Below the pieces are notes generated by a model. That model ran no database searches. It saw nothing but the letters and a program-made list of their open reading frames with translations, and was not told the DNA's origin. Shown in pieces: positions 23,213 to 39,694 of a stretch of 64,000 bases of DNA; the stretch's first letter is position 1; each line of letters begins with the position of its first letter. The position numbers and the translations under genes are program-made. The stretch is from Rubrivivax benzoatilyticus JA2 = ATCC BAA-35 (GTDB taxonomy: Bacteria > Pseudomonadota > Gammaproteobacteria > Burkholderiales > Burkholderiaceae_C). The stretch lies in NCBI RefSeq assembly GCF_000190375.1, contig NZ_AEWG01000061.1, positions 1-64,000 of the forward strand. Direction: 5' to 3'.

Positions 23213-23974
23213 TTGATCGACGACATCGCATTGGCAACCGCCGCAGCGCGCACCGGCGGCGAGTATCTGACCAGCCGGCTAGGCAAGGCTAATTTGACGC
23301 GCTGGGTCGAACGGGACGTCAAGCTCGCCGAGGATGCGCAGGCTGAGGCCCTGATCGTCGGGCACCTGACCCGGCACTCCCGCCATCCCATCCTGACCGA
23401 GGAGGCTGGCTGGATCGGCGAGCCAGCGCGGGGCGACGCGGCGTATTGGGTCGTCGACCCCCTGGACGGAAGCTTCAACTTCCTACACGGCATCCCGCTG
23501 TGTGCGGTATCGGTCGCGCTATGCCGCGGGCTGCAGCCGGTGCTGGGCTGCGTGCACGATTTCATCCACGGGGAGACCTGCGCCGGCGGGCCGGGCCTGG
23601 GCCTGCGCGTCAACGGCCAGGCGGCCGCTGCAGACGCGCACCGGGGCGGCATTCTGGGAACGGGCATCCCGGCTGCGGCCGGTGACCGCCCCCCCTCGCT
23701 CGCCCAGGCCCTGGCGCACTGGCGCAAGGTCCGCATGCTCGGCACGGCGGCACTATCGCTGGCCTGGGTGGCGCAGGGCCGACTGGGTGGGTACGAGGAG
23801 TCGGGCATCCGCTGGTGGGACGTGGCAGGGGGTCTGGCCCTGGTGGCCGGCGCAGGCGGCCGCTTCGAGGTCGGGCCGGCTGCCGGCCGTGACGCCAGCG
23901 ACGGGCTCGACCCGGTTGATCCGCTGCACGTCCGGGCGTGGTCGGCACCCGCTACGGGCATCTCTTCTTTTTAA
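23213..23974 (+). CDS. Inositol-monophosphatase-family sugar phosphatase
   Basis: 253-residue Mg-dependent phosphatase of the IMPase/FBPase/CysQ superfamily. The metal ligands are visible: Glu63-Glu64 (ILTEEAG), Asp82 and Asp85 in DPLDGSFNF, and Asp203 in WWDVAGG. The start is a TTG, and the open frame extends 27 codons further with no usual start codon. It is followed 7 bases later by a Gfo/Idh oxidoreductase and then a SIS isomerase. In this setting a sugar-1-phosphate or heptose-bisphosphate phosphatase role in nucleotide-sugar synthesis is more likely than inositol metabolism. That reading is inference. Confidence 0.87.
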   Translation: MIDDIALATAAARTGGEYLTSRLGKANLTRWVERDVKLAEDAQAEALIVGHLTRHSRHPILTEEAGWIGEPARGDAAYWVVDPLDGSFNFLHGIPLCAVSVALCRGLQPVLGCVHDFIHGETCAGGPGLGLRVNGQAAAADAHRGGILGTGIPAAAGDRPPSLAQALAHWRKVRMLGTAALSLAWVAQGRLGGYEESGIRWWDVAGGLALVAGAGGRFEVGPAAGRDASDGLDPVDPLHVRAWSAPATGISSF

Positions 23975-23981
23975 GGTTGGC

Positions 23982-25025
23982 ATGACATTGCGCATTGGCA
24001 TCTGCGGCTTCGGGAAGATGGGCCAGATCCGCGCCGAGGCCCTGGCCCGGCACCCGGACCGCTGCCGTGTCACCCGGGTCTTCGACACCCAGGCATCCCT
24101 GACCGTGGGTCGGCCGACGGCCGCCTCGGTGGACGGGATCGTGAACGACCCCGACATCGATGCAGTGTTCGTCTGCCTGCCCAACTTCCTCAACATGCCG
24201 ACGACCATCGCGGCCCTGCGCGCCGGCAAGCACGTCTTCTGCGAAAAGCCGCCGGCCTTCAACGCCGAACAAATGCGCGAGATCCGCGCCGTGGAGGCCG
24301 AGACCGGCAAGGTGCTGATGTATGGCTTCAACCACCGGCAGCATGCCGCGATCGTGACGATGCACGATTTGGTCCGCAGCGGGCAGTACGGTCGGGTGCT
24401 GTGGATGAGGGGGCGCTACGGCAAGAGCGTCGATGCTGGCTACCTGACCGGCTGGCGCGCGTCGCCCGAGCTAGCGGGTGGCGGGATCCTGCTGGACCAG
24501 GGCATCCACATGCTCGACCTGATGCTGCACATTGGCGCCCAGCCCTTCGACGAGGTCAATGCCATGGTGTCCAACCTGTACTGGAAGACCCCGGGCATCG
24601 AGGACAACGTCTTCGCGATCATGCGCAACCGGGAGAGCGGCCTGTGCGCCTCGCTGCACTCCACGATGACGCAGTGGCGCCATCTGTTCTCTCTCGAGGT
24701 CTTCCTCGAGCGCGGCTACATGGTCGTCAACGGCCTGAAGACTTCATCCGGCACCTATGGCGAAGAGGTGCTGAGCATCGCGAAGAACCGATCCACGGCG
24801 CCCGCGGCGACCTGGGACGACGAGGAACGTATGCACTTCCAGGTCGACGTCTCCTGGGAGCGAGAGGTCAACCAGTTTCTCGACTGCGTCGAACGCGGGG
24901 CGCCGGTCGTCGACGGCTCGTCGCTGCAGGCCCTGGAGGTCATGGAACTGATCGATCGCATCTATGCCAGTGAACGCCACGAAGCGCCCGAACTGTTCGA
25001 AGACATCCGGACCGTCGGCACCTGA
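23982..25025 (+). CDS. Gfo/Idh/MocA-family NAD(P)-dependent oxidoreductase
   Basis: 347-residue sugar oxidoreductase from the ATG at 23982, with AAGG 7 bases upstream. The Rossmann motif is IGICGFGKMGQIRAEAL. The family motif with the conserved lysine is GKHVFCEKPPAFN (about residue 87). The C-terminal domain carries GGGILLDQGIHMLDLMLHI, where the histidine is the usual catalytic candidate. It probably oxidises or reduces a ring carbon of a sugar or sugar nucleotide. It sits between IMPase and SIS genes, suggesting one pathway. Confidence 0.92.
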   Translation: MTLRIGICGFGKMGQIRAEALARHPDRCRVTRVFDTQASLTVGRPTAASVDGIVNDPDIDAVFVCLPNFLNMPTTIAALRAGKHVFCEKPPAFNAEQMREIRAVEAETGKVLMYGFNHRQHAAIVTMHDLVRSGQYGRVLWMRGRYGKSVDAGYLTGWRASPELAGGGILLDQGIHMLDLMLHIGAQPFDEVNAMVSNLYWKTPGIEDNVFAIMRNRESGLCASLHSTMTQWRHLFSLEVFLERGYMVVNGLKTSSGTYGEEVLSIAKNRSTAPAATWDDEERMHFQVDVSWEREVNQFLDCVERGAPVVDGSSLQALEVMELIDRIYASERHEAPELFEDIRTVGT

Positions 25026-25041
25026 ACGCCCGGCCCTGCCC

Positions 25042-25611
25042 ATGACGCATCCCGATTGGAACCTCTGGCTGGACGACTACTTCGCCCGTTTCAGGCCGGC
25101 CTTCGACCCCGCCGTGTATGCCACGCTGGTCCGCTTCCGGGACCTGGCCGTGGAGGTGCGTTCTCGCGGCGGCAAGCTGATCTTCGCGGGGAACGGCGCC
25201 AGCGCCTCGATCTCATCGCATGGCGCGGTCGACTTCACCAAGCAGGCCAAGGTGCGGGCGGTCGACTTCAACGAGCCCAACCTCATCACGGCCTTCGCCA
25301 ACGACTACGGCTACGAACACTGGGTGGCACGCGCGCTGGACTGCTACGCCGATCCGGGCGACGTCGTGGTGCTGATCTCGGTCAGTGGCGCTTCGCCAAA
25401 CATCGTGCGAGCCGCCCGGCACGCGCGCGAACTCGGGCTGAAGGTCGTCACCTTCTCCGGCAAGCATGCCGACAACCCGCTGCGGGCGCTGGGCGACGTC
25501 AACTTCTGGATCGGGTCGGCCGCGTACAACGTCGTCGAGGCCGTCCACATGCTGTGGCTGACGACCGTGATCGACATGGTGGTGGGGCGCGCCGAGTATT
25601 CGGTGAACTGA
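25042..25611 (+). CDS. SIS-domain phosphosugar isomerase, GmhA-like
   Basis: 189-residue single SIS domain. The strand GGKLIFAGNGASASISSH, the segment LITAFANDYGYEHW and the ISVSGASPNIVRAA loop closely follow sedoheptulose-7-phosphate isomerase GmhA. His60 matches a GmhA metal ligand. By my alignment the C-terminal ligand pair of GmhA (Gln and His) appears as Glu and Thr, so the substrate or mechanism may differ. I chose the ATG at 25042 because the upstream extension is not conserved. It is probably an aldose/ketose phosphate isomerase feeding a nucleotide sugar. Confidence 0.85.
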   Translation: MTHPDWNLWLDDYFARFRPAFDPAVYATLVRFRDLAVEVRSRGGKLIFAGNGASASISSHGAVDFTKQAKVRAVDFNEPNLITAFANDYGYEHWVARALDCYADPGDVVVLISVSGASPNIVRAARHARELGLKVVTFSGKHADNPLRALGDVNFWIGSAAYNVVEAVHMLWLTTVIDMVVGRAEYSVN

Positions 25612-25708
25612 CTCGACGGCCGCCCACGCGACGACGTGATGCCCCCTCCCGACCCGACGCGGCGACCCTGTGCGCGGCGCGGACCCTGACCCGCCACTAG
25701 ATCGGTGC

Positions 25709-28297
25709 ATGACCCGGTTCTGTTACTTCACCACCAATACCCCCCTGCCGGCCGACCGCGGAGGGCGGGTCCGGACACACCACCTCTGGCGGGCGCTGTG
25801 CGCGAAGGGCGAGGTCAGGATGTTCGTGCTGGGCGACAAGCCCTCCCGGCAGGACCGCGAGCTGCTCTTCGCCGGCGGCGCGCGGCTGCTGCCGCGCCGG
25901 CTGATGAAGACCGCGCGCTTCGGGCGCGCCGGCGAGTTCCTGGAAGGCATCGACCCGCCCGGTCTCTGGGAATCGGCCCACATGCTGCAGGCCTGGGGCG
26001 GGAGCGACCGGTTCTGGCATGGGCTGACCCGCCCCGATGCCTTCCATCGGCACCACCTCAACGAGCGCCGCATCGCGCGCATCGTCGACGAGGTGCGGCG
26101 CTTCGGAGCCGATGCCGCCGTGATCGACGACACCGGCCTCTCGCCGCTGGTGCCCGCGCTGAAGGCGCTGGGCATCCCCGTGATCGTCAGCACGCACAAC
26201 CTCGACTCCCAGCTCTGGCTGGACATCGCAGCCAACGCGAGCGACCCGCACTTCGGCCGCTGGGCCGGCCTCGTGGCGCGCGGCTTCGAGTTCATGGAGC
26301 GCACCTACCTGCCGCTGGCCGACCAGGTCTGGGCCTGCTCCGGCATCGATGCCGAGCGATTCCGCCGGGCCTTCACGCTGCGCGACGTGCGCGTCGTGCC
26401 CAATGCGATCGACGTGCTGCCGCCCCCGCCACCGTCCGGCACGCGAGACCTGGTCTACGTGGCGCAGATGGGCTACCGGCCGAACGAGGATGCGGCGCTG
26501 CGCCTGATCGACCTGTCGCGCCGCTTCGATGCCCGCCGGGTAACCCACACGCTGCACCTGGTGGGTCGGCCGACGGAGGCGATCAAGCGCGCGGCCGAGG
26601 GCCTGCCCAACGTGCGCGTGCACGGCGTCGTGCCCAGCACCGCACCCTTCCTGGCGATGGCGGCGGTGGTGCCGGTCACGCTGCGGGTCGGCGGCGGCAC
26701 GCGCATCAAGATCGTGGAGGCCATGGCCGCCGCCCGCCCGGTGGTCAGCACGGCGATCGGCATCGAGGGCATCGAGGCCCGGTCGGGCGAGGACTGCCTC
26801 ATCGTCGACGACGATGCCGCGCTCGAATCGGCCGTCGAGCGCCTGCTCGACGACCCGCAGGAGGCGCAGCGCATCGGCCTCAACGGGCACGCGCTGGCCC
26901 AGGCCCGCTACTCCCACGTGGCCGTCACGCGGCAGGTGGCGGAGCACCTGTCGGCGCTGGGACTGGCGCTGGAGGCCGGCGATGCCCGCCGCCCACCGCC
27001 GCAGGCCAGCGCCGTCGCACAGGGAGGCCGGTTCGACCCGACGACGCGGATGCTGCAATGGCGCGTGCAGGTGCGCGCCGCCCATCCGCTGGAAGACGCC
27101 GAGGTGGAACTGGCCACCGGCGAGGACCGGGCCCTGTACAACTCCTCGGTCTCGGTCGGGTGGTGCAACGGGCCCGGGCGCCCGCTGCAGTTCGTCGACA
27201 TCGTGGCCGTGCTGCCCTCTTCGGTGGCCATCGAGGATCTGGTCATCCGCGCCTTCGCCTACGGCGAGCAGGTGCTCGAGGTCCGGGGCGACGGCCGCTC
27301 GGTGACCGAAGCCACGACGGGCCTGCTGGCCGCCGACTGGCAGGACGACGGCCGTCTGGCCGGCCTGGTCTGGACCCGTGCCGATCGCGCCCCGGAGATC
27401 GTCTTCGAGCGGCAGGCCCAGGCCGCGGTCGGCGTGGCCAGGCCGCTGCCGGCGCGCCCCGGCGTGGCGGTCGCGCCCTTCGTGCTGGACGCCGCCGACC
27501 GCGGCGACCCCAAGGTCCGGCGCCTGGACGTGCGCAGCGCCGGTGCGGCACCGGAGACCGGCCAGACCTTCTGGCTGATCGACGCGTTCAAGGGCCGGCA
27601 CGAAACCACCTCGGCACGCCTGGCCGCGCTGCGCGGCGCACACGCCGGGCAGACCGCCTGGATCATCGGCAACGGCCCCAGCGTGCGGACCGAGGACCTC
27701 GACCGGCTCCAGGGCCGGCTGTGTTTTGCCTTCAACCGCTTCTACCTCGCCCACGACCAGACCCGCCTGCGGCCCACGTACACGGTCTCCGGCGACCGCC
27801 AGATGATCGAGGACTTCGGGCAGGAGATCGCCGACCGTTCCGGCGGCACCGTGTTCCTGGCCGACGACCGCTGCCCTGCCGTCGTCGGGGACTACGTCTG
27901 GCTGCGCCAGCTGGCCCTGTGGCCGCCGCTGTTCTCGATGCGGCCGGACCGCTGGGTCAGCCCGGGCGGATCGTCGCTGTACATCGCGCTGCAGTTGGCC
28001 TGGTTCATGGGCATCCGCCGCTTCTACGTCTACGGCGCCGACTTCAAATTCGTCTACCGGCGCGAACGGCACGCCGACCCGTTCCGGGTCGCGTCGGGCG
28101 ACGGCAACCACTTCATCAAGAACTACCGCAACAACCAGCCCTGGTGCCCGCCGAGCTTCATCAACATCTGCCCGGCGTTCCACACCGCGCGCACGATGGT
28201 GGAGAGCGAAGGCGGATGGATCCGCAACGTCACGCGCGGCGGCCTGCTCGAGATGTTCGAACGTGGCGACTTCGAGCAAGCCCTCGCCGACGGCTGA
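25709..28297 (+). CDS. Bifunctional glycosyltransferase: GT4 domain plus C-terminal DUF115/MptE-like domain
   Basis: 862-residue protein from the ATG at 25709. Residues about 1-415 are a GT4 glycosyltransferase: a start FTTNTPLPADRGGRVRTHH, a VYVAQMGYRPNEDAALRLI linker and the donor region RVGGGTRIKIVEAMAAARP. Residues about 435-640 are a beta-rich linker domain. From about residue 648, IIGNGPSVRTEDLDRL, then LCFAFNRFYL and RRFYVYGADFKF, matches the DUF115/MptE-like fold, which also resembles GT42 sialyltransferases (GNGPS and FxxNxFY). Two transferase steps in one chain are likely. It follows the SIS gene after 97 bases. Confidence 0.85.
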   Translation: MTRFCYFTTNTPLPADRGGRVRTHHLWRALCAKGEVRMFVLGDKPSRQDRELLFAGGARLLPRRLMKTARFGRAGEFLEGIDPPGLWESAHMLQAWGGSDRFWHGLTRPDAFHRHHLNERRIARIVDEVRRFGADAAVIDDTGLSPLVPALKALGIPVIVSTHNLDSQLWLDIAANASDPHFGRWAGLVARGFEFMERTYLPLADQVWACSGIDAERFRRAFTLRDVRVVPNAIDVLPPPPPSGTRDLVYVAQMGYRPNEDAALRLIDLSRRFDARRVTHTLHLVGRPTEAIKRAAEGLPNVRVHGVVPSTAPFLAMAAVVPVTLRVGGGTRIKIVEAMAAARPVVSTAIGIEGIEARSGEDCLIVDDDAALESAVERLLDDPQEAQRIGLNGHALAQARYSHVAVTRQVAEHLSALGLALEAGDARRPPPQASAVAQGGRFDPTTRMLQWRVQVRAAHPLEDAEVELATGEDRALYNSSVSVGWCNGPGRPLQFVDIVAVLPSSVAIEDLVIRAFAYGEQVLEVRGDGRSVTEATTGLLAADWQDDGRLAGLVWTRADRAPEIVFERQAQAAVGVARPLPARPGVAVAPFVLDAADRGDPKVRRLDVRSAGAAPETGQTFWLIDAFKGRHETTSARLAALRGAHAGQTAWIIGNGPSVRTEDLDRLQGRLCFAFNRFYLAHDQTRLRPTYTVSGDRQMIEDFGQEIADRSGGTVFLADDRCPAVVGDYVWLRQLALWPPLFSMRPDRWVSPGGSSLYIALQLAWFMGIRRFYVYGADFKFVYRRERHADPFRVASGDGNHFIKNYRNNQPWCPPSFINICPAFHTARTMVESEGGWIRNVTRGGLLEMFERGDFEQALADG

Positions 28298-28337
28298 GTC
28301 GACCCGCAGCTCCCGGCCCCCTTCCGATGCCCCGCCC

Positions 28338-31300
28338 ATGACCACCCACGACGCTCCGCTGTCCGTCGCCATCTTCGCCACCAACGACCCCAGAAACTAC
28401 TCCGGCGGGCGCTACCTATCGCTCGTGATGGCCTATGCACTGGCGTCGGTCGGCTGCCGGGTGACGGTGTACACCGACCACCTGCCGTCCTTCGACGCCG
28501 ATCTCGCGCCGCTGGCGCCTGGCCAGGTGAGGTTCGTGATCACGCCCGACTTCCGCGCCGGCGTGGAGGCCGCGCCGCTGGACTGGGTCGTGCTGGTCCC
28601 CACCGGCATCTTCCTGCCGGACTTTTATGACGCGGTGACCGACCACGCGGCCGCCTGCGGCGCGCGTCTGGCGCTGGTGAACTTCGAGTCGGCCAACTGG
28701 TACAACGCGGTGTCGCCTCACCCGCGCGACGCGCGGCTGTGGGACGCCTGGCGCCGCAGCGCGCTGGACGGCGCCCTGGTGCTGTCGATCGCGCGCGAGG
28801 GTGACCTCCACGCCCGCGACTTCTACATCCCCACGCAGGCCGCTATCCGGCTCGACGTCTGGCAGCCGCCGATCAACTCGCCGCTGGCGGAGCGCTTCGA
28901 CGGCCGTCCACGGCGCCCGCTGGTCGTCAGCTTCGTGCGCCCCAGCGACCCGCACAAGGGGGGGCTGGACCTGCTGGCCCTGCCGCCGGCGCTGCTGGCC
29001 GGCCACGAGCTGGCCCTGGTGGCGGGGCGCGACATCGACCCGGCCTTCCTGGCGTCGGTGCAGAAGCACTTCGCGGCCGCCGCGGGCTGCCGCATCACCG
29101 TGCACACCCGGATCAGCGATGAGGCCAAGCTGCAGCTGCTGTCCGAGGCCCGGCTGCTGGTCTTCCCGTCCTACTTCGAGGGCTACGGCTACCCTCCGAT
29201 CGAGGCACTGTACTGCGGCACACCCGCGGTCTGCTACGACCTCCCGGTGCTGCGCGAGACCGTCGGCGGCGTCGCCCGCCTGGTGCCGGTGGGCGACAAC
29301 GCGGCGCTGGCCGAGGCCGTGGCTGCGGTACTGGCACGGCCGGCCGACCCCGCCGCCCTGCGTGAAGGGGTGCGGCGGCTGGCGCACTTCGGCACCCGCG
29401 CCCTCGCGCTGCACGACCTGCTGCTGCGCCACCGGGACGGCGTTCCCGTCCGGCGGCCTCGCGCCTTCGCCGCCACCATCGGCCCCTTTGCCGGCACGCG
29501 CCCGCGGGCCGCGGAAACGCAGGACCGGCCGCCGCTGCCGCCCCTCCCGTTCCACCTGATCGACGCGCGCGAGCAGTCCGGCGGTGGCCTGCTGGTCACG
29601 GCGCGGGGCTCGGCCCTGCAGATGCCTGACCGCGTGCAGGTCCAGGCCGGCGACCGGTGCTGGGCCGCGGCCGTGGTGGCGGAAGAACTGCCCGTGCCCC
29701 ACGGCGCGGCCTACCGGGTGCATCTGGCGGTGCCGGCGGACATCGCCGCCGACGCCGAGCTCACCATCACGTCGTGGCAGGGTGTGCAGCAGGTGGCCGA
29801 GGCGTGGTTCCGGCTACGTCCCCCCTTGCCGCCGGCCGGCCAACCAGCGCCCGCGGGCGGTCTGATCGCCGAGCAGCAAGTGGGCGGCCAGGTCTACTTG
29901 CATGCCTGGTGCCTGGCATCGGAGCCGGTGGAGCAGGTCGTGGCGATCCACGGAGGCAGCGTGCTGGCCTCCGCCACGGTGTCGGAACAGCGCCCGGAGC
30001 TAGCCGAGGCCCGTCCCGAATCGGCCGGTCGCGCCACCGGGTTCGCGATGGCGCTGCCGCTGGCCGAGCTCCCCCGTGGTGGGATCGACCTGCTGCTGCT
30101 GGGCCAAGGCCGAACGCTGGGCGTGCTGGCGGCCTGGCCGCACGGCACCCCCGCTGGCGGCAGGCGGGGCACGTTCCGCAGCGCGCCCTCGGCGGAACCG
30201 GTGGCCGTCTGGCAGCCGGAAGACCTGAGCAACGCGCACTGGCGGCGCGGCATCTCGCTGTTCGGCGATCCGCGTGAACCATCGGTGCTGACCACGGCCG
30301 CCCCGGCGGCGGGCGAACTTTCGGTCGGCACGCCGCTGCGGTTCGCCAGCGGCACGGTGGCGCGGGTGGTCCGCGTCCAGAAGAAGGGTCACCTCTGGAA
30401 CGTGGACGTCGACACCCTGCTGCAGCCCGACGCCGATGGGTTCCCCGCGATGGTCGAGGCCCTCCCCAGGGCCGCCGTGCCCGACGACGCCGCACTCGCG
30501 TTCGCGGCGGACGAGGACGCCGACGGCGCGTGGCTGAACGGCGTGGGCGCGGCGCCCGGCGACGGCAGCCGCACGAGGGTCCGGCTGGCTTCCGTTGGGG
30601 CCGCGGCCGCAGCCCTGGTGCCGGGCGCCGTGCTGCACTTCGCCGACGCCGGACCGTGCACGGCGCTCGAGGTGCAGGAGACGGACGGCGCGCTCGTGGT
30701 GTGGCTGGATGCGACGGTCGGCCCGGTCCGGGACGGGGCGCCGAACCCGGTGCGCCTGATCCGCCTGCCGCAACCCGGGGACCGCTGCCTGCGCATCGTG
30801 CCGGCAGCCGGCGCCGAGGGCGGCATCGTCGGCACGGCGCCGCGGCGGGCCCAGGTGCTGCTCGAGCCCAGCGAGGCCCTGGTGCCGGGCGCAGTGCTGC
30901 AGTTCGCGGCGGCCGGGAGGCTGCCGGTGCTGGCCGTCGAGCCCGCAGGCGCAGCGTTGAACGTTACGGTGGGCGGGACGCTGGACCCCGCACTCGACGG
31001 TGCGCCGCGTCGCGTGCACCTGCTCGGGCCCACGCACGACCTGCGGGCCGTGCGCCGGCAGCCGGCCATCCCGGTGCCGGACTTCAAGGCGCCCGACCCC
31101 TACCACCGGGCCCTGGCCGCACGCTGCGATCCGGGCCGCGTGACCGAGGCGCCGCCCACGGCAGCGGCGCCGCCGCGGCGCCCACGCGTGCTCTTCCTGA
31201 CGCTCGTGCCGCCGGCGCCCGCCAACCAGGGCAATCGAGTCGTCACGCGGAACCTCATCCGGCATCTGGTAGACCTCGGCTACGACGTCGACGTGGTGAT

Positions 31301-33383
31301 GCAGGGCTGGATCGACGTGCCGGCCTTTGTCGACGAGTTCGGTGACCGCGCACGGCTGTACCACTGCGCGTCGCCGCAGTGGGAGGCGACCGACGAGGTC
31401 CGTGCTCGGCAACGGGCGCGCCAGGACCTCGTCCCGGCCCTGACCGACCTGCACGCCCGGCTCGCCGAGTCGGTCGACGAGTTCCACCCCTTCTTCATCG
31501 TGCGCGACGAGACGGTGGATCTCGCGCGTGCGCTGCTGGCCAGCGCCCGCTACGACTCGATCGTGTGCAACTACCTGCACATGGCACGGGTGGTGAAGGA
31601 GCTGGAGGACGAGTTCGACCTGCCCAAGGTCTGCGTCGTGACCCACGATGCGTTGTCGAACCTCACGCGGCGCCTCGGCCACACGGCGCTGGACACGACT
31701 TACCGAGCCTGTTCGCCCGCCGTCGAGCGCGAGGCGCTCAATGCGGTGCCGGGCGGCGTAGCGGTGGCCATCTCCGCCGAGGAACAAGCCTACTTCCGCG
31801 ACATCGGCGTGCACCTGCCGGTGCTGCTGTGCGAGTACGACGCGGCGGGCGAGTTCGAGCACGGCACGGTCGACGACACCGCCTTCGAGGCCCGCACGCT
31901 GATCTACTCAGCCAGCGCAAACCCCCTCAATCGGGCCGCCCTGGGCTGGTTCCTGGACGAGTGCTGGGCCGACATCCTCGAGCGCGTGCCCGAGGCCCGC
32001 CTGGTCGTGACCGGCCCGATCTGCGACGTGCTGCCGGCACACCTCCCGGGGGTCACGCTAGCCGGCAACGTCGAGCGCGACGCGCTGCTGGGCCTGATGC
32101 GCCGCTCCAGCATCGCCATCAACCCCTGCGTGGCGGGTACCGGCCTGAAGATCAAGACCGTCGAGGCGGCCTGCCTCGGCCTGCCGGGCGTGTGCCTGCC
32201 GGCGGCCGTGGACGGGCTGGCGGACGTGGCGCCGCACTTCGCCGTGACGGCCACCGACGCGGCCGGCTTCGTCACCGGCTGCGTGGCGCTGCTCACCGAT
32301 GCCCGCCGGTGGCAGGCCCTGCACCAGGGTGGCCTCTCGATGGCCCGCGAACGCTTCTCCCATGAACGCGTGTACCGCGAGGTCGACGCGGCCATGGGCT
32401 GGCGGCGCCAGCCCGACGTCGGCGGCATCGACGAGACGCCACTGGACGGCGTGCCGGCCGGATCGGCGCAGGCCAGGCTGATGGCCGACCCGGGCTCCCT
32501 GTTCGCGCTGCGCCGCGACCGCCCGGAAGACGCGGACGTCCGGATGGCGCTCGCGCGCCAGTTGGCCGCGGCCGGCGAACCGCAGCTGGCCCACGCGCTC
32601 ACGGCCGGCGTGGCCGCGGCATCGCCGCGCTCGCCAGAGCGTGTGGCGTTCGCGGCGCGCACGGCCATCGACGCCGGCCAGGCCTGGCCGGCCTTGGTGC
32701 ACGCCGCACATCTGGTGGCCGGTCCCAACGGCGTGCGCGCCGACGGCTATGCGCTGATGGCCGAGGCGCTGCTGGCCCTGGACCGCCTGCCGCACGCGCG
32801 GGATGCCGCGCTGCAGGCCCTGGCCATCGCCCCCGCCCGCCCGTCCCTCCACGGGCTGCTGCAGCGCATCGCCGAACGGCTGGCCGACCCCACGCTCGAG
32901 GCCTGGGCGCTGCGCTGCGCCGCGCCGCCTCTGCGGCTGGGAGAAGCGGTGTCGGTGGGCCAGGGCAGCCCCGGACGTTGCCGCCTCGGGACCGGCTGGT
33001 CGGCCCCCGAGGCCTGGGGCGCCTGGACCGAGGGCGCCACGGCCGCGCTGGTGCTCGAGCTGGAGACGCCGGTAACAGGCGACCTCTGGATCACGCTGCA
33101 GGCCCACGCCTTCACGCCTATGGTCAGGCCCCGGTGTCGCGTGATGGCCAGCGTGCTGGGCCATCTGCTCGCCGAGATCGAGTTCGAGCCCTCGATGACG
33201 GACCACGCCTGGTCGTTCCGGTGCCCGCGCGCCCTGGCTGCGGCCGGCCGCGTGCTGAAGATCCACCTCGACCTACCGGACGCGATGAGCCCCTCCGAGT
33301 TGGGCCTGAGCCCCGACCCACGCCTGCTGGGGCTGGCCCTGCACAGCCTGCGGGTGGACACGGCCCAGGAGGCGGCGCCGTGA
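28338..33383 (+). CDS. Giant multidomain protein with two GT4 glycosyltransferase domains, beta-repeats and a TPR-like region
   Basis: 1681 residues from the ATG at 28338. Domain 1 (about 1-375) is a GT4 enzyme ending in the donor motif FPSYFEGYGYPPIEALYCG. A beta-rich stretch (about 400-620) follows. Then come three internal repeats starting near residues 661, 760 and 848, each opening with a GxxLxFA core (VGTPLRFAS, PGAVLHFAD, PGAVLQFAA). Domain 2 (about 948-1360) is a second GT4 enzyme with PANQGNRVVTRNLIRHL and NPCVAGTGLKIKTVEAACLG. An alanine-rich helical, TPR-like part (1380-1530) and a final beta domain close the protein. It likely adds two sugars processively. Its stop overlaps the next gene as GTGA. 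Confidence 0.88.
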   Translation: MTTHDAPLSVAIFATNDPRNYSGGRYLSLVMAYALASVGCRVTVYTDHLPSFDADLAPLAPGQVRFVITPDFRAGVEAAPLDWVVLVPTGIFLPDFYDAVTDHAAACGARLALVNFESANWYNAVSPHPRDARLWDAWRRSALDGALVLSIAREGDLHARDFYIPTQAAIRLDVWQPPINSPLAERFDGRPRRPLVVSFVRPSDPHKGGLDLLALPPALLAGHELALVAGRDIDPAFLASVQKHFAAAAGCRITVHTRISDEAKLQLLSEARLLVFPSYFEGYGYPPIEALYCGTPAVCYDLPVLRETVGGVARLVPVGDNAALAEAVAAVLARPADPAALREGVRRLAHFGTRALALHDLLLRHRDGVPVRRPRAFAATIGPFAGTRPRAAETQDRPPLPPLPFHLIDAREQSGGGLLVTARGSALQMPDRVQVQAGDRCWAAAVVAEELPVPHGAAYRVHLAVPADIAADAELTITSWQGVQQVAEAWFRLRPPLPPAGQPAPAGGLIAEQQVGGQVYLHAWCLASEPVEQVVAIHGGSVLASATVSEQRPELAEARPESAGRATGFAMALPLAELPRGGIDLLLLGQGRTLGVLAAWPHGTPAGGRRGTFRSAPSAEPVAVWQPEDLSNAHWRRGISLFGDPREPSVLTTAAPAAGELSVGTPLRFASGTVARVVRVQKKGHLWNVDVDTLLQPDADGFPAMVEALPRAAVPDDAALAFAADEDADGAWLNGVGAAPGDGSRTRVRLASVGAAAAALVPGAVLHFADAGPCTALEVQETDGALVVWLDATVGPVRDGAPNPVRLIRLPQPGDRCLRIVPAAGAEGGIVGTAPRRAQVLLEPSEALVPGAVLQFAAAGRLPVLAVEPAGAALNVTVGGTLDPALDGAPRRVHLLGPTHDLRAVRRQPAIPVPDFKAPDPYHRALAARCDPGRVTEAPPTAAAPPRRPRVLFLTLVPPAPANQGNRVVTRNLIRHLVDLGYDVDVVMQGWIDVPAFVDEFGDRARLYHCASPQWEATDEVRARQRARQDLVPALTDLHARLAESVDEFHPFFIVRDETVDLARALLASARYDSIVCNYLHMARVVKELEDEFDLPKVCVVTHDALSNLTRRLGHTALDTTYRACSPAVEREALNAVPGGVAVAISAEEQAYFRDIGVHLPVLLCEYDAAGEFEHGTVDDTAFEARTLIYSASANPLNRAALGWFLDECWADILERVPEARLVVTGPICDVLPAHLPGVTLAGNVERDALLGLMRRSSIAINPCVAGTGLKIKTVEAACLGLPGVCLPAAVDGLADVAPHFAVTATDAAGFVTGCVALLTDARRWQALHQGGLSMARERFSHERVYREVDAAMGWRRQPDVGGIDETPLDGVPAGSAQARLMADPGSLFALRRDRPEDADVRMALARQLAAAGEPQLAHALTAGVAAASPRSPERVAFAARTAIDAGQAWPALVHAAHLVAGPNGVRADGYALMAEALLALDRLPHARDAALQALAIAPARPSLHGLLQRIAERLADPTLEAWALRCAAPPLRLGEAVSVGQGSPGRCRLGTGWSAPEAWGAWTEGATAALVLELETPVTGDLWITLQAHAFTPMVRPRCRVMASVLGHLLAEIEFEPSMTDHAWSFRCPRALAAAGRVLKIHLDLPDAMSPSELGLSPDPRLLGLALHSLRVDTAQEAAP

Positions 33384-34177
33384 GGCCGGCACTGCAGGAC
33401 CTGGCCGCGCGACTCGCCCGCGCCGAGGTCGAAGGCACGCAGGTGCCGGCCGAGCTGCCGGGCGCGGGCCAACTCACCGGGCTGGCCGACGCGGAGCAGG
33501 TGCAGGACGCGGTGCTGGGCGCCCTCGGCATGGTGGCCGCGTCGTTCAAGCTGGGCGCCAGCACCTATGGCGCGCAGCGTGCCCTGGGCCTGCCCCGCGC
33601 CTTCCTCGCGCCGCTGCCGGCATACCGCAGCCTGCAGGGGCCCTCCAAGCTGCCCTGGTCGGCGCTGCGCCAGCACGGAGTCGAGTGCGAACTGGCGGCC
33701 GCACTGCGCCCGCCGACGCCGGCGGAACGCGCGCTGCTGCGCGAGGCCCCCTCGCCCGCCAGCCTCCGGCTGGCCGAGAGCCTGGTGCAGTCCTGCCACT
33801 CGGCCATCGAGATCCCGCAGACCCGATTCCGTGCGCTGGGCGCCGCCGGCCCGCTGGCGCTGGTGGCGGACAACGGCGCCGCGGGCTGGACCATCGTCGG
33901 CGCCGCCGGCGACCCGGGCCTGCTCCAGAAGCCGTGCATCGGGCGGCTTCACGTGGACGGCACCCTGGTGGCCGAGGGCGACGACCGTGCCTTCGCGATG
34001 GACCCGCTGCGCCTGCTCCAGCAGTTCCTGCACCAGGCCGAGGCGCGTGGCCTGCTGCCGGAGCACGCCACCACGGTGCTGCTGGGCAGCGTGACCCCGT
34101 ACCATGCCCTGCCGGGACCGTGCCGGGTGCAGGCCCGGTTCGAAGGTCTGCCCGGCGTCGAACTGGATTTCTGCTGA
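33380..34177 (+). CDS. 2-keto-4-pentenoate hydratase/FAH-fold enzyme (MhpD-like) inside the polysaccharide locus
   Basis: 265-residue protein from a GTG overlapping the previous stop. Line by line it follows the MhpD/HpcG hydratase-decarboxylase family: Lys57 in SFKLGASTYGAQRALGL, the metal-binding ExE pair Glu102/Glu104 in HGVECELAAAL, Glu144 in SAIEIPQTRF, VADNGAAGWTIVG, and the C-terminal TTVLLGS and PGPCRVQARFEGL region. The family normally hydrates 2-keto-4-enoic acids in aromatic catabolism; nothing catabolic is nearby. Conserved ligands suggest an active enzyme on a 2-keto acid, here between a giant glycosyltransferase and a 2-hydroxyacid dehydrogenase. The role is unknown. Confidence 0.8.
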   Translation: MRPALQDLAARLARAEVEGTQVPAELPGAGQLTGLADAEQVQDAVLGALGMVAASFKLGASTYGAQRALGLPRAFLAPLPAYRSLQGPSKLPWSALRQHGVECELAAALRPPTPAERALLREAPSPASLRLAESLVQSCHSAIEIPQTRFRALGAAGPLALVADNGAAGWTIVGAAGDPGLLQKPCIGRLHVDGTLVAEGDDRAFAMDPLRLLQQFLHQAEARGLLPEHATTVLLGSVTPYHALPGPCRVQARFEGLPGVELDFC

Positions 34178-34209
34178 ACCGCCACCACCGCCTTCCGCCC
34201 CTGATCACC

Positions 34210-35181
34210 ATGCCGCCTCGTCACGTCGCCGTCCTGTCGCGCTCTTTCTCGGCCCACCCCCAGCTGCGCAGCGAACTGCTGGCCCGATGCCCCGGGGCAC
34301 GCTTCAACGACAGTGGCCGCACCCTGGCCGGCGACGATCTGGTGCGGTTCCTGGCCGGAGCCGACGCGGCCGTGGTGGCGCTGGAGAAGCTGGACGCGCC
34401 GACCCTAGCGCGCCTGCCCGACCTGCAAACCATCGGCAAGTACGGCGTCGGCCTGGACAACGTGGACCTGGCCGCCTGCCAGCGGCAAGGCATCCGGGTC
34501 GGCTGGACCGGTGGTGTCAACCGGCGCTCGGTGGCAGAGCTGACGATCGCGTTCATGATCGACGCGCTGCGCCACGTGGTGCGGAGCAACCGCGAGATCC
34601 TGGCCGGTCAGTTCCGGCAGATCCAGGGCCGGCAGCTCTCGGGGCGCACCGTCGGCGTGGTCGGCTGCGGCCACGTCGGCAAGGAGGTCGTGCGCCTGCT
34701 GCGCGCCTTCGATTGCCGCGTGCTCGTGCACGACCTGGCGCCCGATCCGGCCTTCTGCGCTGAGACCGGCGCCGAGCCCAGCGCGCTCGATCCACTGCTG
34801 GCCGCGAGCGACGTCGTCACCCTGCACCTGCCGCTGACCCCCGCCACGCGGCTGCTGTTCGACGGCACGCGCCTGGCCCGCATGCGGCCCGGCGCGGTGC
34901 TGGTCAACACAGCGCGCGGTGGCATCGTCGACGAGCCGGCGCTGGCGGTGGCGCTGGCCGAAGGCCGGCTGGGCGCTGCCGCGTTCGACGTCTTCCTGCC
35001 CGAGCCGCCGGTGGACCGCAGCCTGGTCGACCTGCCCAACTTCATCGCCACCGGCCACATCGGCGGCAGCTCGGCCGAGGCGGTGCTGGCGATGGGAAGG
35101 GCGGCGATCGAGGGGCTGTTCAACGCCGTGGATGCGCTGGATCACCTGCCGCCCTACCTGCGGGACGAACAAGCGACCTGA
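34210..35181 (+). CDS. D-isomer-specific 2-hydroxyacid dehydrogenase (phosphoglycerate dehydrogenase-like)
   Basis: 323-residue NAD-dependent dehydrogenase from the ATG at 34210. Asp/Gly nucleotide-binding site GVVGCGHVGKEVVRLL (about 149-164), catalytic Arg236 in VNTARGGIVDE, Glu265 in VFLPEPP and His283 in TGHIGGSS are all present, and KYGVGLDNVD marks the substrate side. It lacks the regulatory domain of long SerA proteins, so serine synthesis is not implied. It lies between a 2-keto-acid hydratase-like gene and methyltransferase/cytidylyltransferase genes, suggesting reduction or oxidation of a keto/hydroxy acid for the polysaccharide. Confidence 0.9.
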   Translation: MPPRHVAVLSRSFSAHPQLRSELLARCPGARFNDSGRTLAGDDLVRFLAGADAAVVALEKLDAPTLARLPDLQTIGKYGVGLDNVDLAACQRQGIRVGWTGGVNRRSVAELTIAFMIDALRHVVRSNREILAGQFRQIQGRQLSGRTVGVVGCGHVGKEVVRLLRAFDCRVLVHDLAPDPAFCAETGAEPSALDPLLAASDVVTLHLPLTPATRLLFDGTRLARMRPGAVLVNTARGGIVDEPALAVALAEGRLGAAAFDVFLPEPPVDRSLVDLPNFIATGHIGGSSAEAVLAMGRAAIEGLFNAVDALDHLPPYLRDEQAT

Positions 35182-35207
35182 CGCCACGCCTCAACGGAGA
35201 GATCCAC

Positions 35208-36044
35208 ATGCAACTGGACCGTACCGACACCAACCCCGCCCGCTCTCGCGCCTATGCCGAGTTGCTGGCCACGCTCGGCGTTTCTGGTGCCGCCGAGATG
35301 TACGAGGTCCTGACGGAGCGGCTGTACGCGGCGTGGCTGCGCCCCGGCGATGTCGCGATCGATGCGGGTGCCAATGTCGGGCGGCACGCGATTGGCATGG
35401 CGCAGGCGGTCGGTCAGGGCGGCACGGTACACGCGTTCGAGCCGTCGCCAACCGTGCTGCCGATGCTCTACGCGCGGCTGCAGAAGGCTGGCGTCAATGA
35501 TCGCGTCACGGTGCATGAACTCGCGCTCGGGCGGGCACCGGGCTCGGCGCGGTTTCATGTCCTCCATGGCGCACTGGGCATGAGTGGCCTTCAGTTGCGC
35601 GAACTCGCGCCCGATCTCCAGGCACGGGTGAACATCGAAGAGGTGGAGGTCCACGTGGAGACCCTGGACAGCCTGTTCGGACACGGACTCCCTGCCCGCT
35701 TCGTAAAGCTCGACCTGGAAGGCGGTGAACTGGACGCGATGCGCGGTGGCACGGACCTGCTGCGCGCCAACAGGCCCCTGGTGGTGTTCGAAAACGGACG
35801 CGGCCACAGCGCCAAGGACTACGGTTACGACATGGACGACTTCTTCGGGTTCTTCGAGTCGATTTCCTATCGCGTGCTCGATGGAGTGGGTTTCCCGTTC
35901 ACGGCCGCGCAATGGAGTCTGGGCAGCGTACCCTGGCAGTTCGTCGCGCTGCCGGATGGCGACGCCAACATGCTGGACTGCGCCACGGCCGTCATCGCCG
36001 AGGTGCTCGCGCAACATGGACTCCGAACCTCGGACCAGACCTGA
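35208..36044 (+). CDS. FkbM-family methyltransferase
   Basis: 278-residue SAM-dependent O-methyltransferase of the FkbM type. Motif I is AIDAGANVGRHAIGMA, followed by VHAFEPSP, which binds the SAM ribose. The C-terminal family motif is RFVKLDLEGGELDAMRGG. A GGAGAG ribosome site precedes the ATG. It is a paralogue of the gene at 38425 and of the decayed copy at 39248; they share the VGRHAI and LLR segments. It probably methylates a sugar hydroxyl of the polymer. Confidence 0.9.
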   Translation: MQLDRTDTNPARSRAYAELLATLGVSGAAEMYEVLTERLYAAWLRPGDVAIDAGANVGRHAIGMAQAVGQGGTVHAFEPSPTVLPMLYARLQKAGVNDRVTVHELALGRAPGSARFHVLHGALGMSGLQLRELAPDLQARVNIEEVEVHVETLDSLFGHGLPARFVKLDLEGGELDAMRGGTDLLRANRPLVVFENGRGHSAKDYGYDMDDFFGFFESISYRVLDGVGFPFTAAQWSLGSVPWQFVALPDGDANMLDCATAVIAEVLAQHGLRTSDQT

Positions 36045-36135
36045 ACTGAGCGCGGGCTGATTTGGGAACGTCAGCCAACTCGACCCCCTGTCAGCCGAGG
36101 GGATGCGTCATCCACCGCCATTGCCGGAGCCGTCC

Positions 36136-36819
36136 ATGAGCCACATTGCGATGATCCCCGCCCGCATGGGCAGCCAGCGCCTGCCGAAGAAGAACCTGGC
36201 CCTGCTCGACGGTGTGCCGCTGATCGTGCACGCCATCCGCAAGTGCCACGCGGCCGGGCTGTTCGACGAGGTCTGGGTCAATTCCGAGCACCCCGACTTC
36301 GGCCCGATCGCCGAGGCAGAGGGCGCCCGCTTCCACCGCCGCCCGGAGCATCTGGGCGACAACAACGCCACCTCCGAGCAGTTCGTGGCCGAGTTCCTCG
36401 AGACCCACCCCTGCGAGGTGGTGTACCAGGTGCACTCGATCGCCCCGTTGCTGACGGCCGACGAGCTGCGCGGCTTCGTCGCCGAGATGCGCAGCGGGCG
36501 CCACGACGCGCTGATGAGCGTGGTGGAGGAGAACCTGGAGTGCGTCTTCCGGGGCGAACCCGTCAACTTCACCTTCTCCGAGAAGACCAACAGCCAGGAC
36601 CTGACGCCAGTGCAACGCATCGTCTGGGCCGTGACCGCCTGGCGGCGCGACCGCTACCTGGAAGCGGTGCGCACCGGCGCCTGCGCCACCTACGCCGGCC
36701 GCATCGGCTACTACCCGGTGGGGCGGATGGCCGGGCACGTGATCAAGACGCAGGAGGATCTCGACCTCGCCGCCGCGGTGCAGGCGGCGCGGCGCAGCCG
36801 CGGCGGGGCCTCGTCATGA
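36136..36819 (+). CDS. CMP-sugar cytidylyltransferase (NeuA/KdsB-like)
   Basis: 227-residue nucleotidyltransferase from the ATG at 36136. The CTP-binding loop IPARMGSQRLPKKNLALLDG is the acylneuraminate-type cytidylyltransferase signature. VNSEHPDFGPIAEAEGARFHRRP and VYQVHSIAPLLTADEL continue the fold. No NeuB-type synthase and no KDO genes lie nearby, so the sugar activated is not evident. An Arg-rich tail ends the protein. Its TGA overlaps the start of the secreted beta-helix gene (ATGA). Confidence 0.88.
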   Translation: MSHIAMIPARMGSQRLPKKNLALLDGVPLIVHAIRKCHAAGLFDEVWVNSEHPDFGPIAEAEGARFHRRPEHLGDNNATSEQFVAEFLETHPCEVVYQVHSIAPLLTADELRGFVAEMRSGRHDALMSVVEENLECVFRGEPVNFTFSEKTNSQDLTPVQRIVWAVTAWRRDRYLEAVRTGACATYAGRIGYYPVGRMAGHVIKTQEDLDLAAAVQAARRSRGGASS

Positions 36820-38393
36820 AGGCCCGCTGGCGCGCGGCGATCGCTGCGCTGTGCGCCAGCCTGTGCACGACGCCCAGCCTGGCGCTGGCCCCCCCGCAGC
36901 CGGACCTGCCGCCCTCGCAGGTGTTGACGGGCGAGGTGCTGTCCACCGACTTCGGCATCGGCACCGACAAGGCCGACAACACCGAGGCGATCAACCGCTG
37001 GCTGGCCCACTGCCATGCGACGGGTGCCACCTGCCGGCTGGCGCCGGCGGCCAAAGGCGCGCTGCTGGCCTGCGGCATCGTGGTCCCGGGCCAGAACCTG
37101 GTGCTGCAGGGGCCGGGCATGGGTGGCGTGAAGCTGACGGCCACCAGGGGCTGCAACCGACACTTCATCACCGTCGCGGTGGCACCCGCCACCGGCATGC
37201 GGCCGATGCTGCGCGACCTGTCCATCAACTGCGCCAACTACGCCAACGAGCGCGGCCACTGCATCCATCTGCCGGCCGACACGAGGAACGGCTACGGCAC
37301 GGGCGTGGACCTGGTGAACGTCTACGTCGACCGGGCCGCGGAGGACGCGGTGCACGTGGAGCGCAACCGCGGGGCCGGCCTGCTGCAGAACACCTACCTG
37401 TACCACTACAAGGGCACGGGGCTGCACCTGGAGAGCTCGGACTGGAACTGCCAGGCCAGCAACTTCTCCGGCAACTACGCGCCTGGGGCCTTCGCCGACT
37501 ATGGCGTGCGCATCGTGGCCGGCGCCAACAACACCTTCGTGCACTGCCGCGCGTACTACAACCGGGTGGGCGTGGCCACCGAGTACGCATCGCTTTCCAC
37601 GCCGCTGACCTGGATCGGCGGCGACCTGTCGAACAATGCCGAGAACGGCCTGCGCGTCGACAGCGGCGGCCTGCTGCAGTCGGTGGTGGTCAGCGGCACG
37701 CGGTTCACGATGAACAGCATGCAGGGCGACAACCTGCACGCCGACATCCTGCTGTCGCGCAATGCCGGAACCATCATCACCGGCAACGTCTTCCAGCGCG
37801 GGGCCGCCTCGGTGCCGAAATACCTGATCGAGATCCGCTCGCCGGCGGGTCCGGCGATCGTCGCCAACAACGCCTGGTCGGTCGCGGGCCCCCGAACGCA
37901 ATCGTTCGCCACGGCGGTGTCGAACGACCCGGCCATCACGATGTTCGGCGGCGGCCTCGGCTCGGCAGGCGACGCCGGCGCCAATACGCTGGAGCTGCTG
38001 GTGGCGCAGACCCGCGACGGGCGCACCCCCGTGCGCATGACCGCTGGCAGCGGCACAGCGCGGCCGGACGAGGCCCTCACCCCGACACGCGACTTCCGCA
38101 AGCTGGTGCTGCGCGACGTTGCGATCACGGCCTCGAACCCCGCAACTGCCGAAGTGGCCACGTGGTCGCTACCCACCGTGGTGCTCGTGCGCGGCGAAGG
38201 CCCCGGGTCGGTGACGCTCGTCGGTGCTGCAGCTCGGCCGGTTGCCGTCGCCAGTACACCCGGACTCGCCGGCCTGCCCCCGCCGGCGCTGAGTGTCGAC
38301 CGGGCGCTCGGCGCCTTGCAGGTGACCGTGACGGGACTCGATGGCGTCGAGTTGCGCTGGCAGTTCACCGCACGAATCCAGGAGTTGCAATGA
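36816..38393 (+). CDS. Secreted right-handed beta-helix (pectate-lyase-fold) protein
   Basis: 525 residues with a Sec signal (residues 1-25, cleaved after LALA). The mature part begins with VLSTDFGIGTDKADNTEAIN, the usual entry to a phage-tailspike or pectate-lyase-like beta helix. Repeated strands rich in Asn, Gly and Val follow (GLHLESSDWNCQASNFSG, TWIGGDLSNNAENGLRVDSG, GTIITGNVFQ). The last about 110 residues form a different beta domain. Enzymes of this fold cleave or epimerise polysaccharides. A depolymerase, epimerase or trimming enzyme in the periplasm or outside is likely. It overlaps the cytidylyltransferase stop by 4 bases. Confidence 0.85.
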   Translation: MKARWRAAIAALCASLCTTPSLALAPPQPDLPPSQVLTGEVLSTDFGIGTDKADNTEAINRWLAHCHATGATCRLAPAAKGALLACGIVVPGQNLVLQGPGMGGVKLTATRGCNRHFITVAVAPATGMRPMLRDLSINCANYANERGHCIHLPADTRNGYGTGVDLVNVYVDRAAEDAVHVERNRGAGLLQNTYLYHYKGTGLHLESSDWNCQASNFSGNYAPGAFADYGVRIVAGANNTFVHCRAYYNRVGVATEYASLSTPLTWIGGDLSNNAENGLRVDSGGLLQSVVVSGTRFTMNSMQGDNLHADILLSRNAGTIITGNVFQRGAASVPKYLIEIRSPAGPAIVANNAWSVAGPRTQSFATAVSNDPAITMFGGGLGSAGDAGANTLELLVAQTRDGRTPVRMTAGSGTARPDEALTPTRDFRKLVLRDVAITASNPATAEVATWSLPTVVLVRGEGPGSVTLVGAAARPVAVASTPGLAGLPPPALSVDRALGALQVTVTGLDGVELRWQFTARIQELQ

Positions 38394-38424
38394 CACATCC
38401 GCCCGGCCGCGAAGGAGAGACGAC

Positions 38425-39222: not shown

Positions 39223-39247
39223 GACCCAGAACCCGAAAGTAGGCCCG

Positions 39248-39637
39248 ATGGATCTCGAAAAAAAGCGGCAGGTCTTCTACGAGCGGCTGGACCTCGCAGG
39301 CCCGAAGGTGATCGACATCGGCGCGCATGTCGATCGTCACGTGCCCCCGTTCGCCGCGATCGTCAGTCACTAGGAGCATGTGCAGGTGGAGGAGCGCATC
39401 CAGTACATCGCTGACCGCATGCAGGCGAACTGCGACAGGGCGGAGTGTCAGGCCATGTCTCGGTACTCAGGGCGGTGGTGTCGTCCGCACCCGGGGCGAG
39501 CGCGCCTCCACGCCGTTTCCTGGGCCGAGGCCCTGTCGTCCCGCAGCCGTGATCTCGCGGCCGTGCGCGACCAGGGCGCAGTGCTCGACCAGCGGTTCGG
39601 GCCGCAGGCGGCGGGTCGGGATCCGCCCCGCGCATGA
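39248..39637 (+). pseudogene. Decayed FkbM methyltransferase paralogue
   Basis: A frame starting at ATG 39248 keeps short matches to the preceding FkbM gene: FYERLDLAGPKVIDIGAHVDRH near the N-terminus (against the PGDLALDVGGNVGRHA region), IQYIADRMQAN, then AEALSSRSRDLAAVRDQG and DQRFG. It has an in-frame TAG at 39371-39373, loses about 8 residues before DQRFG, and stops at 39637 without the conserved LDVEG half. No intact product is possible. It looks like a tandem duplicate that degenerated at the meeting point of the two half-loci. Confidence 0.8.
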
Positions 39638-39694
39638 CGCGGTCGCCTCGCGCGAGGTTCGATCCGAGACGATTGGCCGCGGAAGGGGCAGGCG

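Follow-up and report, generated by a model that had tools for sequence, protein, structure and literature searches.

We analyzed a 64,000-nucleotide stretch of the Rubrivivax benzoatilyticus JA2 genome (positions 1 to 64,000 of contig NZ_AEWG01000061.1, referred to below as the window) and found that six genes for small-molecule enzymes in it represent a copy of a gene set shared widely among bacteria. The genes code for an inositol-monophosphatase-family phosphatase (IMPase), a Gfo/Idh/MocA oxidoreductase (Gfo/Idh), a GmhA-like isomerase (SIS), a hydratase-like protein of the FAH/MhpD family (FAH-like), a D-2-hydroxyacid dehydrogenase and a CTP transferase (CTPT). Our preferred interpretation, to which we give a probability of about 0.6, is that together they constitute a conserved oxidative, aldolase-free route to a CMP-activated 2-ulosonic acid. 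The gene content, the conserved linkage, the kept active-site motifs, the fold of an associated transferase domain and a pattern of enzyme replacement were all observed directly. The window corresponds to contig C104 in a genome of 4.13 Mb and has a G+C content of about 70%. The six genes, all open, intact and on the plus strand, belong to a large polysaccharide locus that also codes for a Wza-type export protein, glycosyltransferases, GDP-sugar enzymes and an ABC exporter. Their order is IMPase, Gfo/Idh, SIS, two glycosyltransferases, FAH-like, dehydrogenase, an FkbM methyltransferase and CTPT. The original prediction, made from the window alone, had described six enzymes with intact key motifs interleaved with giant glycosyltransferases, and the open reading frames (ORFs), coordinates, family matches and kept motifs all bear this out.

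To define the gene set across genomes, we used the CTPT as the only bait. A tblastn search of plasmids returned three loci, in Sinorhizobium fredii SMH12 (62% identity), Leisingera aquaemixtae (54%) and Paenibacillus cellulosilyticus (39%), each with the other enzymes nearby. The alignment of the four CTPTs was scanned against 84,980 species genomes; this gave 197 candidate loci, of which we retained the 80 best. Partner enzymes played no part in the selection. Altogether, 84 loci were examined with partner profiles, and 83 of them (80 genome contigs and three plasmids) contain a CTPT scoring above 250 bits; the bit thresholds of this census were set by us after the spread of scores had been seen. 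The Nonomuraea locus (L006), with a weak CTPT of 166 bits, enters the 51-locus tally given below and not the 50-locus one. Another locus with a partial CTPT (L085, 261 bits) is counted among the 83 loci and falls outside the 82-sequence CTPT alignment, for which the threshold was 300 bits.

IMPase is the most frequent partner in the 83 family loci (67), followed by the dehydrogenase (65), Gfo/Idh (61), SIS (56) and the FAH-like protein (42). Because it is present in only 42 of the 83 loci, we consider the FAH-like protein an optional member and the other four as core partners. Among the 51 loci of at least 18 kb, all four core partners are present in 32, three in 10, two in 2, one in 5 and none in 2. 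When the CTPT is included, the complete five-gene core is found in 32 of the 50 CTPT loci of at least 18 kb and in 42 of the 83 loci of any length. The gene order is shuffled widely between lineages, while the gene content is kept. The partners also vary together in sequence: their pairwise identities correlate for IMPase and FAH-like (r = 0.92), SIS and Gfo/Idh (0.90) and the dehydrogenase and IMPase (0.84), with 0 of 200 shuffles as high, although such correlations reflect species kinship as well. For 10 of the 27 loci without SIS in the examined flank we also checked the rest of the genome, and in all 10 a SIS relative is encoded elsewhere (at least 237 bits in nine genomes and 171 bits in one).

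As controls, we took 20 regions, each surrounding a different CTP_transf_3 gene, from the R. benzoatilyticus genome and from the cassette genomes; one of these regions (L094) is only 11.3 kb long. Nineteen control regions lack all four core partners and the remaining one has a single partner. Neither SIS, nor the FAH-like protein, nor any two core partners together were detected in any of the 20 regions. This comparison favours the cassette loci over the controls to some extent, as the profiles used to detect the partners derive from cassette loci. At a looser threshold (E-value of 1e-5) the controls yielded Gfo/Idh twice, the dehydrogenase once, IMPase once and SIS not at all, the hits being in four different regions. 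The association of the cassette genes is thus far beyond chance. The co-occurrence in other genomes on which the original prediction depended is conserved: our neighbourhood search found all four core partners in 32 of the 51 longer loci versus 0 of the 20 controls.

The CTPT itself is distinct from the well-known members of its superfamily. The window CTPT scores 32.5 bits against the kdsB equivalog model (cut-off 155.2) and 70.7 bits against the PseF model (cut-off 205.7), the latter being the best curated match. Its closest solved relative is a CMP-sialic acid synthetase (1qwj). Near the C-terminus, the Asp-x-Asp motif, which we take to be the metal site of NeuA-type enzymes, is represented by Val-Ile-Lys in the window protein. 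The same kind of replacement (a hydrophobic pair followed by Lys, with both Asp residues missing) is seen in 74 of the 82 aligned family members. The eight sequences that keep Asp-x-Asp come from six Bacillota, one Desulfovibrio bin and one Bdellovibrionales bin. The loss of the motif may represent a change of the metal site within one CTPT family.

We also searched for the enzymes that supply the usual substrates of such transferases. NeuB has no match in the entire 4.13 Mb genome of R. benzoatilyticus (in the control, the model matched 9 of 14 known genomes). It is absent from 30 of the 40 cassette genomes examined, which correspond to 40 of the 80 contig loci, and present in 10. The sole KdsA match in the R. 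benzoatilyticus genome lies on another contig (C60) and is not linked to the cassette, while the other CTP transferase of this genome, on contig C82, is a KdsB (287 bits against the cut-off of 155.2). The 3-deoxy-D-manno-octulosonic acid (Kdo) needed for lipopolysaccharide therefore has its own enzymes. The KdsA model was run on nine genomes; the score exceeds the cut-off in four (R. benzoatilyticus, G304, G330 and the Paenibacillaceae bin G341) and falls under it in G342; the other four, including three Bacillota (G338, G339 and G343), gave no match. A plain KdsB or NeuA identity of the CTPT was accordingly rejected, based on the curated cut-offs, the separate KdsB and the absent NeuB. The original prediction had noted that the locus lacks NeuB and KdsA, which holds, and had named an ordinary KdsB or NeuA as the outcome that would undo it, which is not what we found.

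A further observation concerns the step at which the keto acid would be formed. In three of the 83 loci (L075, L076 and L077) an IlvD/EDD sugar-acid dehydratase is present, and in all three the dehydrogenase is missing from the examined stretch. Conversely, we saw the dehydratase in none of the loci with the dehydrogenase; in the examined stretch of 15 further loci neither enzyme was found. Either enzyme can turn an aldonic acid into a 2-keto acid; the dehydrogenase keeps the C3 hydroxyl and IlvD/EDD removes it. The CTPT changes together with this replacement. Its Asn152-Ser153-Gln motif is kept in all 64 aligned CTPTs from dehydrogenase loci and in all 15 of the rest (79 of 79), and is Leu/Met/Ala-Thr-Gln in exactly L075, L076 and L077. 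These three sequences form one clade, and therefore the motif change and the dehydratase swap count as one evolutionary event. The linked swap matches the prediction of the proposed chemistry. The FAH-like protein is found in none of the three dehydratase loci.

The partner enzymes retain the predicted active-site residues of their families. In IMPase, Glu63-Glu64, Asp82-Pro-x-Asp85-Gly and Trp202-Asp203, presumably the metal-binding residues, are invariant in 26 aligned rows, and the closest solved relatives are inositol monophosphatases. In Gfo/Idh, Glu88-Lys89-Pro90, Asp172 and His176 are invariant (26 rows), and its profile hits comprise inositol dehydrogenases along with further members of the Gfo/Idh family, among them glucose-fructose oxidoreductase. 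In the dehydrogenase, Arg236, Glu265 and His283, which we assume to be the catalytic triad of D-2-hydroxyacid dehydrogenases, are invariant (23 rows); both Pfam domains score over their cut-offs, placing the protein among D-2-hydroxyacid dehydrogenases, with phosphoglycerate dehydrogenase and glyoxylate reductase as the closest solved relatives. The SIS protein stays below the gmhA equivalog cut-off (75 versus 209.45 bits). Nevertheless, its profile matches solved GmhA phosphoheptose isomerases far better (7.6e-38) than arabinose 5-phosphate isomerase (9.2e-7). His60, Asp64 and Glu166 are kept and His169 is nearly invariant. The window SIS protein has Thr in place of the second His of the family consensus, five residues after His169; by eye, this second consensus His aligns with a conserved His of GmhA.

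The assignment of the FAH-like protein is based on a family profile. On its own, the protein has no Pfam or NCBIfam match, and the single-sequence similarity to a solved member is only 8e-4. The profile of 27 aligned sequences (the window protein and 26 relatives) matches the MhpD 2-keto-4-pentenoate hydratase 2wqt at 3.6e-38. Lys57, Glu102, Glu104, Glu144 and Asp164 are invariant in the 27 rows. The family profile and the kept Lys/Glu/Glu/Glu positions place it as a predicted MhpD-type hydratase.

Clustering of neighbour ORFs combined with Pfam searches revealed several recurrent neighbours. One is a domain that in the window is fused to a glycosyltransferase and that matches CstII/CstI by profile. 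The fold matches of this C-terminal domain are Maf, CstII and ST6Gal1; the fold is shared over the whole domain, which makes it GT42/Maf-like, and we propose that it is the transferase for the CMP-activated sugar acid. An MptE/DUF115-like domain is present in 44 of the 83 loci, compared to 2 of the 20 controls. Other recurrent families are S-adenosylmethionine (SAM) methyltransferases (29 of 83 loci), SMP-30/gluconolactonase (20), DUF386 (YhcH; 11) and 6-phosphogluconolactonase (five: L053, L066, L071, L008 and L026). The last passes the pgl cut-off in three of three tested cases, and gluconolactonase occurs in none of these five loci. In L026 some 8 kb separate the 6-phosphogluconolactonase from the CTPT, and the two may have no connection. 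The recurrence of two unrelated lactonase families around the cassette argues for a sugar lactone as an intermediate, and 6-phosphogluconolactonase for a phosphorylated one. YhcH, a DUF386 protein, is an N-acetylneuraminate anomerase that opens the ring of that 2-ulosonate (PMC8141875). We read the recurrence of DUF386 as a sign of a 2-ulosonate. HAD-hydrolase-like domains, a possible alternative phosphatase, recur in cassette loci of Bacillota and a few Pseudomonadota; we noted such domains near the CTPT, some in large proteins, in L003 (14351-16198), L005 (18850-22137), L080 (9672-11393) and L082 (226-915). KpsC-like proteins (PF05159) are present in some loci, with similarity too mixed for counting. 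Three Bacillota loci (L005, L084 and L086) combine a CTPT that has the canonical Asp-x-Asp with the SAM methyltransferase family and similarity to KpsC; no GT42-like domain was found in their examined stretch.

We infer the following pathway, including the order of its reactions, its substrate and its product, from the genes. SIS would start from a ketose phosphate, which may be sedoheptulose 7-phosphate, and yield an aldose phosphate. Since SIS is akin to GmhA, a seven-carbon sugar is a fair first guess, although six carbons are also possible. Gfo/Idh would oxidize C1 to give an aldonolactone phosphate, which may open spontaneously or through gluconolactonase or phosphogluconolactonase. The D-2-hydroxyacid dehydrogenase would then oxidize C2 of the aldonate, yielding the 2-keto acid (2-ulosonate); in the three IlvD/EDD loci, the dehydratase would take over this step and produce a 3-deoxy-2-ulosonate. 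IMPase would next remove the phosphate, although it may act before the second oxidation instead. The CTPT would join CMP to the ring form of the ulosonate, and the GT42/Maf-like domain would transfer the activated sugar acid to the polymer. The weakest part of the scheme is the FAH-like protein, which probably alters the 2-keto acid, by epimerization at C3/C4 or by loss and re-addition of water. This chain is the simplest one that uses every core enzyme, finds a place for the lactonases and the dehydratase swap, and ends in the type of substrate used by NeuA/KdsB and GT42/Maf enzymes. The original prediction had the six enzymes jointly making an undescribed CMP-linked sugar or keto/hydroxy-acid substituent. 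The conserved linkage and the distinct CTPT support this claim, with two qualifications: the FAH-like protein turned out to be optional, and the identity of the product is deduced from the genes.

Several other explanations have to be weighed against this route. The CMP-activated product might be something other than a 2-ulosonic acid, such as a hydroxy-acid substituent or a keto-cyclitol, with Gfo/Idh and IMPase acting on inositol-like compounds and the dehydrogenase making or using a small hydroxy acid. The inositol dehydrogenases and inositol monophosphatases among the closest solved relatives, along with the resemblance of the dehydrogenase to phosphoglycerate dehydrogenase, would fit such a product. 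We nevertheless find it unlikely, as the SIS relatives are phosphoheptose isomerases, lactonases recur, a sugar-acid dehydratase appears in three loci, the transferase domain resembles CMP-nonulosonate transferases, and the CTPT is similar to KdsB and to CMP-sialic acid synthetase, both of which act on 2-ulosonates. It might also be argued that the locus houses two pathways, one in which SIS, Gfo/Idh and IMPase make a modified sugar and a second in which the dehydrogenase, FAH-like protein and CTPT make another CMP-linked acid. Some loci indeed hold only part of the set, and the correlations of pairwise identities are uneven, being tightest for IMPase with FAH-like (0.92) and SIS with Gfo/Idh (0.90), while CTPT and Gfo/Idh (0.60) are among the loosest pairs. 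However, IMPase correlates with members of each supposed half (0.80 for SIS, 0.84 for the dehydrogenase), and the five core genes stay together in 32 of 50 longer loci in many orders, so that we regard a divided locus as rather improbable.

Finally, the CTPT could be an ordinary KdsB, NeuA or PseF fed with a nonulosonic acid or Kdo produced outside the locus, its neighbours being unrelated polymer genes. It does belong to the same superfamily, with PseF as its best curated match; KdsA is encoded in the R. benzoatilyticus genome, and NeuB in a quarter of the cassette genomes examined (10 of 40). Against this stand the scores below both cut-offs, the separate KdsB, the lack of NeuB in R. benzoatilyticus and in the other 30 genomes, and the linkage to the other cassette enzymes. 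The lack of any KdsA match in three Bacillota cassette genomes (G338, G339 and G343) also speaks against it, while G342 has a match under the cut-off and G341 one over it. We consider this explanation very improbable.

The gene set is distributed broadly. By NCBI rank, the 83 loci belong to Pseudomonadota (48), Verrucomicrobiota (7), Hydrogenedentota (6), Bacillota (5), Planctomycetota (3), Thermodesulfobacteriota (2), and Omnitrophota, Bacteroidota and Bdellovibrionota (one each), with nine unranked, including the three plasmid loci. Those 42 loci that possess the whole core come from Pseudomonadota (28), Planctomycetota (3), Verrucomicrobiota (3) and Bacillota (2), and six are unranked (the three plasmids and contigs titled Aminicenantes, SAR324 and 'bacterium'). 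The CTPT tree requires 12 phylum changes versus a minimum of 8. Among 300 genomes of the same order as R. benzoatilyticus, only its own matched the CTPT at an E-value of 1e-25, and the family is therefore rare among its relatives. The nearest CTPTs are those of Alphaproteobacteria and a Methylococcaceae bin. Together with the patchy occurrence of the family, this suggests that the window cassette was acquired by transfer. Two contigs, L038 (Colwellia) and L042 (Oceanospirillaceae), have identical cassette layout and coordinates and nearly zero-length CTPT branches, reflecting either recent transfer or a binning error.

Table 1. Cassette genes and intervening genes of the window, with family matches and proposed roles
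Feature	Coordinates	Strand	Evidence and proposed role
IMPase, inositol-monophosphatase-family phosphatase (TTG start)	23213..23974	+	Pfam Inositol_P 1.7e-37; proposed sugar-acid phosphatase
Gfo/Idh/MocA oxidoreductase	23982..25025	+	Pfam 5.2e-23 (on longer ORF); proposed C1 oxidation of aldose(-phosphate) to lactone
SIS isomerase, GmhA-like	25042..25611	+	SIS_2 6.4e-11 (longer ORF), gmhA model 6.3e-21; proposed conversion of ketose phosphate to aldose phosphate
Glycosyltransferase fusion, GT4-type N-terminal part and GT42/Maf-like C-terminal domain	25709..28297	+	Pfam Glyco_trans_1_4 1.3e-19
GT42/Maf-like C-terminal domain of the fusion	27608..28297	+	Proposed transferase for CMP-activated sugar acid
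1706-aa protein, glycosyltransferase group 1 stretches, DUF7024-like C-terminus	28263..33383	+	Polymer assembly; outside the core cassette
FAH/MhpD-family hydratase-like protein	33380..34177	+	Optional cassette member; proposed 2-keto-acid tailoring
D-2-hydroxyacid dehydrogenase	34210..35181	+	Pfam 2-Hacid_dh_C 4.3e-53; proposed C2 oxidation of aldonate to 2-ulosonate
FkbM-family methyltransferase inside the cassette	35208..36044	+	TIGR01444 2.4e-27
CMP-transferase (CTPT), distinct NeuA/KdsB-like subfamily	36136..36819	+	CTP_transf_3 1.1e-20 (from 36103 start); proposed ulosonate activation

Directly after the CTPT, the region 36816-38393 codes for a protein with a right-handed beta-helix region and, judged by eye, an N-terminal signal-like stretch; it could act on the polymer. 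Within about 7 kb (35208-42465) there are four FkbM-type methyltransferases, one of them part of a 604-aa protein. Such a cluster suggests a heavily methylated glycan.

The cassette resembles several known systems and differs from each of them. The Kdo pathway consists of the SIS isomerase KdsD, the aldolase KdsA, the HAD phosphatase KdsC and KdsB. It shares with the cassette a SIS isomerase, a phosphatase, a CTP transferase of the same superfamily and a CMP-ulosonate product (for the cassette, a proposed one). In contrast, the cassette has two dehydrogenases instead of KdsA and an IMPase instead of an HAD phosphatase; its SIS is closer to GmhA, and its CTPT scores far below the kdsB cut-off. 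Nonulosonic acids are made by pathways relying on NeuB/NeuA, PseI/PseF or LegI/LegF. The likeness here lies in the CMP-sialic acid synthetase as the closest solved CTP transferase and in the GT42/Maf-like domain, whereas R. benzoatilyticus has no NeuB aldolase and there are no amino-sugar enzymes among the six. GmhA-type activation of heptoses to GDP- or ADP-heptose likewise employs a GmhA-like isomerase, a phosphatase and a nucleotidyltransferase; however, the cassette transferase is of the ulosonate type rather than an ADP/GDP-heptose enzyme, and two oxidizing enzymes are added. Entner-Doudoroff-like catabolism of sugar acids also features a dehydrogenase, as well as the lactonase seen in some cassette loci and the IlvD/EDD dehydratase seen in three, yet it leads to an aldolase and central metabolism, not to CMP activation and a glycosyltransferase in polysaccharide loci. 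As for the FAH-like protein, its profile and its kept Lys and three Glu residues relate it to the MhpD/4-oxalocrotonate decarboxylase family, although here it is placed in a sugar pathway.

To our knowledge, all bacterial routes to CMP-ulosonates (Kdo, sialic, pseudaminic and legionaminic acids) form the keto acid by means of an aldolase acting with phosphoenolpyruvate. In searches of open-licence PubMed Central papers, none of the titles or abstract openings listed concerned the present gene set, which is weak evidence of novelty. A search for a known polymer of the cassette-bearing S. fredii SMH12 yielded only a 2008 O-antigen title, cited in the reference list of PMC8707391. We think it somewhat more probable than not that the cassette represents a general aldolase-free CMP-ulosonate route across distant phyla. 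In such a route C1 oxidation would be followed either by C2 oxidation, keeping the C3 hydroxyl, or by dehydration to a 3-deoxy product, with matching CTPT specificity and a dedicated GT42/Maf-like transferase family. If so, there would be a class of acidic surface sugars originating outside the NeuB/KdsA aldolase family, and thus a second way to make such sugars. The pathway would also suggest a donor for glycosyltransferases of the unassigned MptE/DUF115-like kind, and it would imply that polysaccharides of marine, soil and gut bacteria contain a sugar that has so far not been sought there.

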